Shown here: one piece after another, positions 28,131 through 32,086 of the stretch
Layout of the letters: every line of letters starts with the position of its first letter
How positions within the stretch are numbered: position 1 is the stretch's first letter
NCBI GenBank assembly: GCA_036403155.1
Contig: DASWRM010000010.1
Location: 1 to 33,617, forward strand
Direction: 5' to 3'
From: Gaiellales bacterium
Lineage (GTDB): Bacteria > Actinomycetota > Thermoleophilia > Gaiellales > JAICJC01
DNA length: 33,617 nt
Notes under the pieces: model-generated
Told to the model about the DNA's origin: nothing
Seen by the model: only the letters and a program-made list of their open reading frames with translations
Database searches by the model: none
Made by a program: the position numbers and the translations under genes

Positions 28131-28425
28131 CTGCGTGTCCGTCGAAACGGAAACGGGCGGCAGCGGTGTCAGGTTTCCCCACGGTTGTGGCCCGAGCTCG
28201 ATGGCGTACAGCCACGGCCACCAGTCACACCAGTTCGATCCCTGGGAGGTGGCGTTGCTGGCGCCGGTGGCGGGATCGATCGGGGTGGCGGTGATTCGCT
28301 CGTTCACAGCGGCGGGTTCAGTATCGGTTGCGCATCGGACGGCGTCCGATGCGGCAGGGAACGGATTGCTCCACGGGTAGACGCGGTACCGCGAAGCGGG
28401 GATGGCACTCCTTCGCCGCCGTTCG
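28131..28425. other. Divergent intergenic region with an inverted repeat and a doubtful small ORF
   Basis: About 295 bp between the CDF exporter and the HD-GYP gene. It contains a perfect inverted repeat, arms CGCATCGGAC and GTCCGATGCG around GGC (28331-28353), and a 59-codon plus-strand ORF from ATG 28201 to TAG 28380, which starts MAYSHGHQSHQFDPWEV, includes a weakly hydrophobic stretch and has about 78% GC at third positions. It has no ribosome-binding site or adjacent -10, so I do not call it a gene. Confidence 0.4.
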
Positions 28426-28431
28426 TAGGGT
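28426..28431 (+). promoter_or_regulatory. -10 box of the HD-GYP gene (leaderless-type)
   Basis: TAGGGT ends 7 nt before GTG 28439 and decides that start over two ATG codons further upstream in the same frame. Confidence 0.45.
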
Positions 28432-28438
28432 TCCTTCC

Positions 28439-30565
28439 GTGCCGCGCACCCGGGTCACCACATTCACCGCGCCCGCCCTCGCGCCGGCCTCCGGAGCCGG
28501 GCTTGCGGCGGCGCTGGCGGATCTCAGCGGGCAGCGCGACCGCGATGCGCTGCGCCGCGCGATCTGCGAGGCAGCCGGCCGGCTTCTGGGCCTCGATGCG
28601 GTGGCGCTGGTGCGCCTGTCGCCGGACGGGTTGGTGTGCGAGGCCCGCTGGGCGCGGGCCGGCGCGCGCCCCGGCCGGGTCGGCGAGGCGCGCATGGCGA
28701 TGGCCGCCGAGATGTGCCAGGAGGCGGACGGCGCGATGTCGCAGCGGGTGTTCGGCCGGCTGCAGCTGATCGCGGTGCCGATCGTCACGGAGGGGGCCGT
28801 CAGCCATCTGCTGGCTGCGACCGCCCGTCCGACACGCGTGCTGCAGGACGGCGACCGGGGCACCGCGGCCGCGCTCGCCGCACACGCGGGCTCGTGCATC
28901 GAGATGGTCGCGGCGCTGTCGGCCGCGCGCGAGTACCTCATGCTGGAGCGTTCCGTTGCTCAGGTCGACAACACACGCGGCGACCGCGCGCTCGAGCAGA
29001 TGCAGCTCGTGCAGTCGCTGTCGGCCGCGTTCACCGGAATGCGCTCGCTGCCCGAGGTGGGGCAGGTCGTGGTCAGCCAGCTGCGCACCTTGATCGAGTA
29101 CCACTCGTGCCGGTTCTACGTGATCTCGCCGGACGGCGAGATGCTCGAACCGGTGGCCCTGCTCGGTATTGGGAAGGCGTACGAGACCGACGCGGTGGAC
29201 GACCTGGTCTGCGCAGTCGGCGAGGGCATCACCGGGCGCGCCTTCGTCGACGGCATGCCGCTTCGGATCGCGGATGCGGCCAAGGTGACCCATGGCGTCG
29301 GTATCCCAGGCACCGAGCCGATGGAGGAGTCGATGCTGGTCGCGCCGATGATCGCGGATCGCGGGCCGGTCGGGGTGATCGTGCTGAGCAAGGAGGGCCT
29401 GAACCGGTTCGACGACGACGACCTGCGGCTGCTCGAGGTGATCGCGGCGCAGGCGGCGATCGCCTGCGAGAACATCCGCCTGATCGCCGAGCAGCGGGAG
29501 GCGGCCGAGGTGTCGGAGGCGCTGCTCGAGCTGGGCGCGGCGCTCGCGCTGCAGCAGAGCATCGACGGCATCGCTGCGATGCTCGCGACCGCCATCGACC
29601 GGCTGCTCGAGTGCGCCGCGATCTCGGTCTGGCGCCGCGACGGCGACCGCCTGCTGCCGGCCACCGCGGTCGGGTACACGCCGCGCGAACAGGCGCGGCT
29701 GATGGGCATCTCGCTGCAGACGGCCGCGGATCCCGTGGCGACCGCGCTCGCCGGCCGGCGGATCTCCTCGCTGCCGGTCGAGCAGCTGCCGGCGCTCACC
29801 GGGTGCCTGGACGCCGCGCCGTCGGGCACGACCTTCGCGGTCGTGGCGATCGGCGAGCGGGCGGCAAACCGGGGCGCCGTGATCGTCCAGCGCGGGCCGC
29901 GCCGAGGCCGCATCTCCGCCCGTGACGAGCAGCTCCTCCTGGGCGTCGCCGACCAGGCGCTGCTCGCGATCACCAACAGGGCGCTGTACGACGAGCTGGA
30001 GGACTCGTTCCTCGCGACGGTGCAGGCGCTCGGGAACGCGCTCGACCTCAAGGACACGTACACCAACGACCACGCCCAGGCGCTGGTCGGCCTCTGCACC
30101 GAGGTGGCCGAGCGGCTGGGCGTGGCGGGAGCCGAGCTGCGCGACGTGAGCTTCGCCGCGGCGCTGCACGACATCGGCAAGATCCGGATCCTCAACAAGC
30201 CGGGGCCGCTGACTCCCGACGAGGTGGCCGTGATGCAGACGCACCCCGCGCTCGGCGCGCGCATCCTCCAGCCGGTCGCCGCACTGGCCGGGGCCGCCGC
30301 GCTGGTGCTGGCCTGCCACGAGCACTGGGACGGCAGCGGGTATCCGGCGGGGCGGCGCGGCGACGAGATTCCGCTCGGCGCTCGCATCATCTTCGCGTGC
30401 GACGCCTTCGACGCGATGACGACCGACCGCTGCTACCGGCCGGGGATGACCGCTCAGGATGCGATCGCCGAGCTGCGGCGCTGCTCGGGAACCGACTTCG
30501 ATCCTCGCGTGGTCGACGTGCTGGTCGCGGTGGTGTCGGCGGGGATCGACGGCAGCGCGTCCTGA
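28439..30565 (+). CDS. GAF-domain HD-GYP signalling phosphodiesterase
   Basis: A 708-aa soluble protein. Three GAF-like sensor domains are predicted, at about 25-180, 190-345 (RFYVISPDGEMLEPVALLGIG... VAPMIADRGPVGVIVLSK) and 355-510. Residues 520-705 form an HD-GYP domain with the complete metal and GYP motifs: NDHAQALVG, ALHDIGKIRILNKPGPLT, TQTHP-like MQTHPALGARI, and HEHWDGSGYPAGRRGDEIP. Such domains hydrolyse c-di-GMP or related cyclic dinucleotides; that activity is inferred from the intact motifs. There is no membrane segment, so the signals sensed are cytoplasmic. It lies directly upstream of the glnA leader, on the same strand. Confidence 0.92.
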   Translation: MPRTRVTTFTAPALAPASGAGLAAALADLSGQRDRDALRRAICEAAGRLLGLDAVALVRLSPDGLVCEARWARAGARPGRVGEARMAMAAEMCQEADGAMSQRVFGRLQLIAVPIVTEGAVSHLLAATARPTRVLQDGDRGTAAALAAHAGSCIEMVAALSAAREYLMLERSVAQVDNTRGDRALEQMQLVQSLSAAFTGMRSLPEVGQVVVSQLRTLIEYHSCRFYVISPDGEMLEPVALLGIGKAYETDAVDDLVCAVGEGITGRAFVDGMPLRIADAAKVTHGVGIPGTEPMEESMLVAPMIADRGPVGVIVLSKEGLNRFDDDDLRLLEVIAAQAAIACENIRLIAEQREAAEVSEALLELGAALALQQSIDGIAAMLATAIDRLLECAAISVWRRDGDRLLPATAVGYTPREQARLMGISLQTAADPVATALAGRRISSLPVEQLPALTGCLDAAPSGTTFAVVAIGERAANRGAVIVQRGPRRGRISARDEQLLLGVADQALLAITNRALYDELEDSFLATVQALGNALDLKDTYTNDHAQALVGLCTEVAERLGVAGAELRDVSFAAALHDIGKIRILNKPGPLTPDEVAVMQTHPALGARILQPVAALAGAAALVLACHEHWDGSGYPAGRRGDEIPLGARIIFACDAFDAMTTDRCYRPGMTAQDAIAELRRCSGTDFDPRVVDVLVAVVSAGIDGSAS

Positions 30566-30591: not shown

Positions 30592-30597
30592 TACAGT
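30592..30597 (+). promoter_or_regulatory. Candidate -10 box of the glnA leader
   Basis: TACAGT; transcription would start near 30604, just before the first leader hairpin. No clear -35 at 17 nt, so confidence is limited. Confidence 0.4.
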
Positions 30598-30605
30598 TGC
30601 CGCAG

Positions 30606-30651
30606 CACCCCGGACGGCGACGGCGCCGGACGGGTGAGGCGACGACGCCTC
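30606..30651 (+). promoter_or_regulatory. Tandem-hairpin leader of glnA, guanidine-II (mini-ykkC)-like riboswitch candidate
   Basis: P1: CGGCG (30615-30619), loop ACGG, CGCCG (30624-30628), extended by tandem G-A mismatches, a G-C pair and CACCC/GGGTG (30606-30610 with 30632-30636). P2: GAGGCG (30636-30641), loop ACGA, CGCCTC (30646-30651). Both loops are ACGR closed by a G-C pair, and the cores are separated by 7 nt, as in guanidine-II riboswitches. The 3' arm of P2 is also the first part of the terminator that follows, so folding of P2 should prevent termination and switch glnA on. Alternative: an ANTAR-protein antitermination site, though those have six-base loops. Confidence 0.5.
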
Positions 30652-30690
30652 CAGGCGACTCCTGCGGGAGTGGCCTGGGGGCGTTTTTTT
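30646..30690 (+). terminator. Intrinsic terminator/attenuator in the glnA leader
   Basis: CGCCTCCAGGC (30646-30656) pairs with GCCTGGGGGCG (30673-30683) over 11 bp with one G-U pair; an inner ACTCC/GGAGT hairpin with a TGCG loop continues the stem. Seven T residues follow (30684-30690). It ends 28 nt before the glnA start, so it must be read through for expression. Confidence 0.88.
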
Positions 30691-30718
30691 GTGCCCGGAA
30701 CCGGACGAAGGGAGCGAG

Positions 30719-32086
30719 ATGTCGACGATCGAGACGAACGCCGCGGCGGCGGCGGTGGAGGCGCGCCAGACGGTGCTGCGCGAAGTCGCGCAGGCGGACA
30801 TCAAGTTCGTGCGCCTCTGGTTCACGGACGTGGTGGGACGGCTCAAGAGCTTTGCGATCACCCGCGACGAGCTCGAGTCGGCGCTCGACCACGGGATGGG
30901 GTTCGACGGGTCATCGGTGACCGGGTTCAACGCGATCGAGGAGTCGGACATGATCGCGATGCCGGATCCGACAACGTTTCGGATCATGCCGCCGGAATCG
31001 GGTGAGCAGTCCGTCGCGCGGATGTTCTGCGACATCCGCACCCCGGACGGCGACCCGTACGAGGCGGACTCCCGGCAGGTGCTGCGAAGCGCGCTCGATC
31101 GGATGCGCGGCCTTGGGTTCGACAGCTTCAAGATCGGGCCGGAGCTCGAGTTCTTCCTGTTCAGGATGGACGAGCAGGGCCGGCCGCACACGCTGGACGC
31201 GGGCGGCTACTTCGAGGACACGACGATGGACGCCGCCGTCGCGCTGCGCAAGGAGATCGTGCTCGCGCTCGAGGAGATGGGCATCCCGGTCGAGTACCTG
31301 CATCACGAGGTCGGGCCGAGCCAGCACGAGATCGACATCCGCTACGCGGACGCGCTCCAGATGGCCGACCACTGCATGACCTACCGCTCGCTGGTGAAGG
31401 AGGTCGCGCAGCGGCACGGGCTGCACGCGACGTTCATGCCGAAGCCGCTGTTCGGCGAGAACGGCTCGGGGATGCACACCCATCAGTCGCTCTTCGTCGG
31501 CGACTCGAACGCCTTCTTCGACGCATCTGACCCGTGGTACCTGTCCGACGTGGCGAAGAGCTTCATCGCGGGCCAGCTGCGCCACGCGCGCGAGATCTCG
31601 CTGCTCTTCGCCCAGTGGGTGAACAGCTACAAGCGACTGGTACCGGGCTACGAGGCCCCGGTGTACGTCGCGTGGTCGCGGCGCAACCGCTCGGCGCTGA
31701 TCCGGGTGCCGCTCTACCACCCTGGCAAGGAGAAGGCGACGCGGGCCGAGATCCGCTGCCCGGATCCCGCATGCAACCCGTACCTGGCGTTCGCAGGCCT
31801 CCTGCATGCGGGCCTCGAGGGGATCGAGCGGGGCTACGAGCTGCCCGACCCGATGGAGACCAACCTCTACGAGCTGACCGCGCCGGAGCGCCGCTCGCTC
31901 GGCATCGAGTCGCTTCCGGAGTCGCTCGGCGAGGCGATCGCCGCGGCAGACGAGTCCGAGGTCGTCGAGAAGGCGCTCGGCGCCGAGCTGAAGGATCGCC
32001 TGATCGCGCTCAAGCGTCGCGAATGGGATGAGTACCGCGTGCAGCTCTCGGCTTGGGAGCTAGAGCGCTACCTGCCGGTGCTCTGA
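30719..32086 (+). CDS. glnA: Glutamine synthetase type I
   Basis: A 455-aa ATP-dependent glutamine synthetase that assimilates ammonium. GSI marks: VRLWFTDVVGRLKSFAI, MGFDGSSVTGFNAIEESDM (substrate loop), the metal-ligand stretch FKIGPELEFFLF, VEYLHHEVGPSQHEID, GENGSGMHTHQSLF, YKRLVPGYEAP and the arginine-rich RNRSALIRVP. The adenylylation tyrosine segment of GSI-beta enzymes is not apparent at the C terminus, and the length is that of the shorter GSI-alpha type, which is controlled by other means. ATG 30719 has AAGGGAG upstream. The terminator-containing leader suggests control by attenuation. Confidence 0.95.
   Translation: MSTIETNAAAAAVEARQTVLREVAQADIKFVRLWFTDVVGRLKSFAITRDELESALDHGMGFDGSSVTGFNAIEESDMIAMPDPTTFRIMPPESGEQSVARMFCDIRTPDGDPYEADSRQVLRSALDRMRGLGFDSFKIGPELEFFLFRMDEQGRPHTLDAGGYFEDTTMDAAVALRKEIVLALEEMGIPVEYLHHEVGPSQHEIDIRYADALQMADHCMTYRSLVKEVAQRHGLHATFMPKPLFGENGSGMHTHQSLFVGDSNAFFDASDPWYLSDVAKSFIAGQLRHAREISLLFAQWVNSYKRLVPGYEAPVYVAWSRRNRSALIRVPLYHPGKEKATRAEIRCPDPACNPYLAFAGLLHAGLEGIERGYELPDPMETNLYELTAPERRSLGIESLPESLGEAIAAADESEVVEKALGAELKDRLIALKRREWDEYRVQLSAWELERYLPVL

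Follow-up and report, generated by a model that had tools for sequence, protein, structure and literature searches.

ANTAR target RNAs have been defined by two hexaloop hairpins joined by a short linker, with a G at loop position 4 (G4) and a second hairpin, P2, that overlaps a terminator (PMC3369931, PMC8934654). Published targets include P-II, ammonium transporter, and glutamine synthase genes (PMC3369931). The best-described example is the set of EutV-controlled eut leaders of Enterococcus faecalis, where G4 makes the only base-specific contact in the structure, a single hexaloop is the smallest unit bound, and both hairpins are required in vivo (PMC8934654). In actinobacterial ANTAR-target sets, A1 and G4 are kept in >50% only (PMC8164766). 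In contrast to the leader described below, many of these RNAs extend over ribosome sites or start codons, few lie before terminators, and the text consulted names no nitrogen assimilation genes among their targets. In the openly licensed literature, actinobacterial ANTAR targets had been linked chiefly to processes other than ammonium assimilation, and most of them had no terminator. Within that literature we know of no earlier description of leaders like these, which may exist elsewhere.

We analyzed a 33,617-nucleotide stretch of DNA from a Gaiellales bacterium (the window), in which glnA (30719–32086) and all leader features given here lie on the forward strand. Its 455-aa product is a glutamine synthetase by Pfam (Gln-synt_C, E 7e-126; Gln-synt_N, E 5e-28), and this is the gene that the leader would control. 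Read from the sequence, a -10-like box, TACAGT, lies at 30592–30597 and a ribosome-binding site, AAGGGAG, at 30708–30714; a simple scan found no sigma-70 promoter pair at the leader. Between them, folding of the growing transcript and covariation in relatives place hairpin P1 at 30609–30634, with the core CGGC/GCCG at 30615–30628 around the hexaloop GACGGC (30619–30624). Hairpin P2, the putative antiterminator, is conserved in relatives and spans 30636–30651, with GAGGC/GCCTC around the hexaloop GACGAC (30641–30646). The two cores are 7 nt apart, which confirms the tandem hairpins, their spacing, and their position between the -10-like box and glnA as first described in a sequence-only reading. 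That reading drew the loops as G-ACGR-C tetraloops; the loop letters are identical, and we fold them as six-base loops in which the inner G-C pair is left open. An intrinsic terminator, supported by folding and covariation, follows at 30644–30690, with a lower stem of 13 pairs (30644–30656/30673–30685), an inner stem of 5 pairs, and a U-run at 30684–30690 that corresponds to the seven T residues already noticed. A simple terminator scan of the leader gave no match; the terminator stem contains a 1x1 mismatch. Terminator and P2 have GCCTC in common, so the 3' arm of P2 is shared as had been proposed, while its six bases are not strictly the first six of the terminator's 5' arm, as the predicted stem starts two bases earlier, at 30644. 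Immediately 5' of the leader, at 28328–30565, is a gene for a GAF and HD-GYP-type (HD_5) protein.

The region 30600–30700 folds at -66.4 kcal/mol, compared with -45.9 +/- 3.4 for shuffled sequences (z = -6.0). In stepwise folding of the growing transcript, P1 and P2 are the earliest to form, and P2 has a probability of 0.97 in an RNA ending at 30660. The terminator overtakes P2 only after 30685 has been transcribed, at which point the P2 probability falls to 1e-6 and the terminator state lies 9.9 kcal/mol below the state with P1 and P2. An attenuator with termination as its predicted default is thus well supported. Folding likewise bears out the proposal that P2 and the terminator of this glnA attenuator are mutually exclusive, and the expected ligand-on behavior carries over as a factor-on logic.

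The leader fits the published description of an ANTAR target in most respects. P1 and P2 are two six-base-loop hairpins whose 7-nt linker falls within the 2–25 nt allowed, both loops carry G at position 4, P2 overlaps an intrinsic terminator, and the genome encodes ANTAR protein. The strict Firmicute/Proteobacterial consensus also has A at loop position 1, where both window loops have G, and we therefore class the leader as a variant and not as a strict member. Compared with the eut leaders, it shares the two hexaloop hairpins, the short linker, the G4 of each loop, the overlap of P2 with the terminator, and an accompanying histidine kinase and REC-ANTAR protein; it differs in loop G1, in its target glnA, and in its actinobacterial host, while glnA leaders of a sister family differ further in having a single hexaloop. 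With the actinobacterial ANTAR-target RNAs (PMC8164766) it has in common the phylum, a partly kept A1/G4, and a regulator related to Rv1626/PdtaR.

To follow the element through relatives, we compared orthologous glnA leaders and built two covariance models. All five P2 pairs are kept in 17 of 17 glnA leaders of relatives, and the P2 loop consensus over 38 orthologous leaders is RAYGNN. Loop base 4 is G in all 38 of these loops and in 14 of 14 P2 loops before other genes, a count to be read with the fact that the initial search pattern already asked in part for G4; P1 was checked again without this condition. Base 2 is A in 36 of the 38, base 3 is a pyrimidine (C or T), and bases 5 and 6 are unconstrained; base 1 is A in 8 of the 38 glnA loops and 10 of the 14 others. 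Every element used includes a terminator; in relatives 93.6% of its cells are paired, and its covariation exceeds all 500 shuffles. For the P1 helix, both sides change in 5 of 7 pairs of a 13-element alignment, with a covariation score reached by no shuffle; the P2 stem is almost invariant and hence covaries weakly by itself. A TANNNT box stands at a similar position before the relatives' elements, 11–17 nt 5' of single hairpins and 27–45 nt 5' of P2 in dual-hairpin elements.

Model R1, built on 17 glnA leaders of two families and searched against 299 genomes from the window's class (Thermoleophilia), gave strong matches (E < 1e-6, the E-values of both models being rough) only within the window's order, and among 80 named orthologous loci the element before glnA is likewise confined to one part of the class. 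Second R1 matches in genomes of the order precede another glutamine synthetase (~40% identical to the window's glnA product), a P-II gene with amt behind it, or an amt gene, so that the relatives' set of sites is nitrogen assimilation (glnA1, glnA2, glnK-amt, and amt). Model R3 was made from the 13 elements of the P1 alignment, which precede glnA2, glnK, or amt in a family other than the window's and include no glnA1 leader. Across the entire 3.2 Mb window genome, its sole clear match was the window leader (E = 1e-5, again a rough value), with the next at E = 0.77. Because the terminator and P1 covary, and because R3 recovers this leader although neither it nor its orthologues were among the training elements, sequence comparison confirms the leader as more than a chance arrangement. 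No second element was seen before glnA2 in the window genome, and no ammonium transporter (PF00909) was found in it (assembly 98% complete); the family was present in all 14 control genomes.

A potential regulator is encoded just past the window end on the same contig, where a GAF-HisKA_2-HATPase kinase (35964–37055) and a REC-ANTAR protein (37040–37627) have overlapping reading frames. The pair starts 3.9 kb downstream of glnA. The window genome encodes four ANTAR proteins, one of them from a gene 5.4 kb beyond the glnA stop, which leaves the identity of the regulatory partner uncertain; ANTAR proteins are encoded in all 22 of the relatives-search genomes that are at least 90% complete. Ten further genomes carry the same kinase/REC-ANTAR pair 3' of glnA, in each case on the glnA strand and 0.07–3.1 kb away: the kinase begins <100 bases after glnA in three (G002, G004, and G027), and the distance is 0.45–3.1 kb in the other seven. 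Among those of the 80 loci with enough right flank, the element and an ANTAR gene downstream occurred together in 9; the element stood alone in 2, the ANTAR gene stood alone in 2, and 32 lacked both (Fisher p = 3e-6, with no correction for kinship). Orthologous glnA genes without the element thus mostly lack the ANTAR pair too, and the contigs of both element-only loci end <5 kb behind glnA. Loci L135 and L139 have an ANTAR gene behind glnA and no hexaloop element before it. The best solved relatives of the window's regulator are Rv1626/PdtaR (1s8n, E 5e-53) and EutV (6wsh/6ww6, E 8e-38); as read from the alignment, it departs from EutV at several residues of the alpha7-alpha8 RNA contact loop.

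We consider it very probable, from the sequence evidence, that this leader works as an antitermination switch of the ANTAR type, placing glnA under a nitrogen-related signal. RNA polymerase would start just 5' of P1. In the default state, the terminator (30644–30690) would displace P2 and end transcription ahead of glnA. Under a signal that may reflect nitrogen status, the downstream-encoded GAF-domain histidine kinase would phosphorylate its REC-ANTAR partner, and an ANTAR dimer could then bind the P1 and P2 hexaloops on the nascent RNA and keep P2 closed. With P2 closed, the terminator would be without its 5' arm, and binding would in this way activate transcription of glnA. Weighing against this reading are the G at position 1 of both loops, the EutV contact residues that the regulator does not share, the presence of four ANTAR proteins as possible partners, and the two loci (L135 and L139) that have an ANTAR gene but no element.

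The sequence-only reading had instead seen a guanidine-II (mini-ykkC) riboswitch, in which guanidine binds paired ACGR loops and blocks terminator formation. The likeness is real in the window genome alone, where two small hairpins carry loops reading ACGG and ACGA closed by G-C. The proposed check with the Rfam mini-ykkC model (RF01068) gave no match in the leader, either at the gathering score or up to E<=10 with permissive filters, and the wider Rfam scan over the same range returned no informative family. Aligning leaders from relatives, also proposed, gave clear covariation for P1 in the elements before glnA2, glnK, or amt; in the glnA leaders, P2 covaried weakly and G4 was the only constant base in place of invariant ACGR loops. 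Homologous leaders without conserved ACGR loops had been named as the finding that would speak against guanidine-II, and the orthologous cores are ATGT, ACGT, ACGC, and ATGG. Since base 3 is C or T in orthologues, bases 5 and 6 are free, and only G4 is constant, the ACGR motif with its closing G-C is, on this alignment, an accident of the window genome. Most orthologues have a single hairpin only, with P1 absent from the glnA1 leaders of the sister family; the target genes serve ammonium assimilation rather than the export or degradation of guanidine; and a protein partner is at hand. Guanidine-II membership is accordingly hardly credible.

The nitrogen-gene targets and conserved loops would also suit a protein-free RNA with the same hairpins that senses another metabolite, such as glutamine or ammonium. 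This is very unlikely, given that the hairpins are minimal, loop base 4 alone is invariant with no further conserved pocket, and the presence of the element follows the ANTAR pair. We give an equally low probability to an unregulated partial terminator, or control by another RNA-binding protein, with the hairpins as G+C-rich by-products. In favor of this view, the P2 stem scarcely varies and its covariation is weak alone; against it, the P2 5' arm and loop G4 are conserved though they lie outside the terminator, P1 covaries strongly, and there is the ANTAR synteny.

Under ANTAR-type antitermination, the number of hexaloops differs between leaders of the order. P1 is present in 4 of 4 leaders of the window's family. 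In the glnA1 leaders of sister family f3, P2 begins just 11–17 nt after the -10 box, so with start sites inferred from that box alone the transcript has no room for P1. A P1-like hairpin occurs in 1 of 37 such leaders, as chance expects (0.03 per leader), and that locus was probably read on the wrong strand. Before the other nitrogen genes of f3, P2 lies 27–40 nt after the -10 box, and 15 of 16 such leaders have P1. We lean toward ANTAR antitermination of f3 glnA through a single hexaloop at the transcript 5' end, alongside dual leaders for glnA2 and glnK-amt. Loss of ANTAR control from the single-hexaloop leaders is less favored, because the loop and the 5' arm outside the terminator are unbrokenly conserved.

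If the proposed switch is right, core ammonium assimilation (glnA, glnK-amt) would be under an RNA-binding two-component system in widespread, mostly uncultured soil actinobacteria. The f3 leaders, if read correctly, would offer a natural single-hexaloop ANTAR antiterminator, unforeseen by the EutV model in which both hairpins are needed in vivo. Matched single and dual leaders within one family would make the question raised in PMC8934654, whether one hexaloop suffices, directly testable.

Two further groups of elements were observed. A single-hexaloop element with a terminator (L105, G033:C54:12638-12686) lies 2.2 kb before a glnA1 element; it precedes a possible 41-codon membrane-protein frame, and in another genome (G015, L007) a frame resembling it ends 5' of glnA1. 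Five leaders upstream of a second glnA type, family f2 (L024, L025, L026, L028, and L030), have two adjacent hexaloop hairpins with loops of the AAYGG type and GACGNN. These lack a U-run, are followed by a strong hairpin immediately 5' of the ribosome site, and are possibly a translational ANTAR switch.
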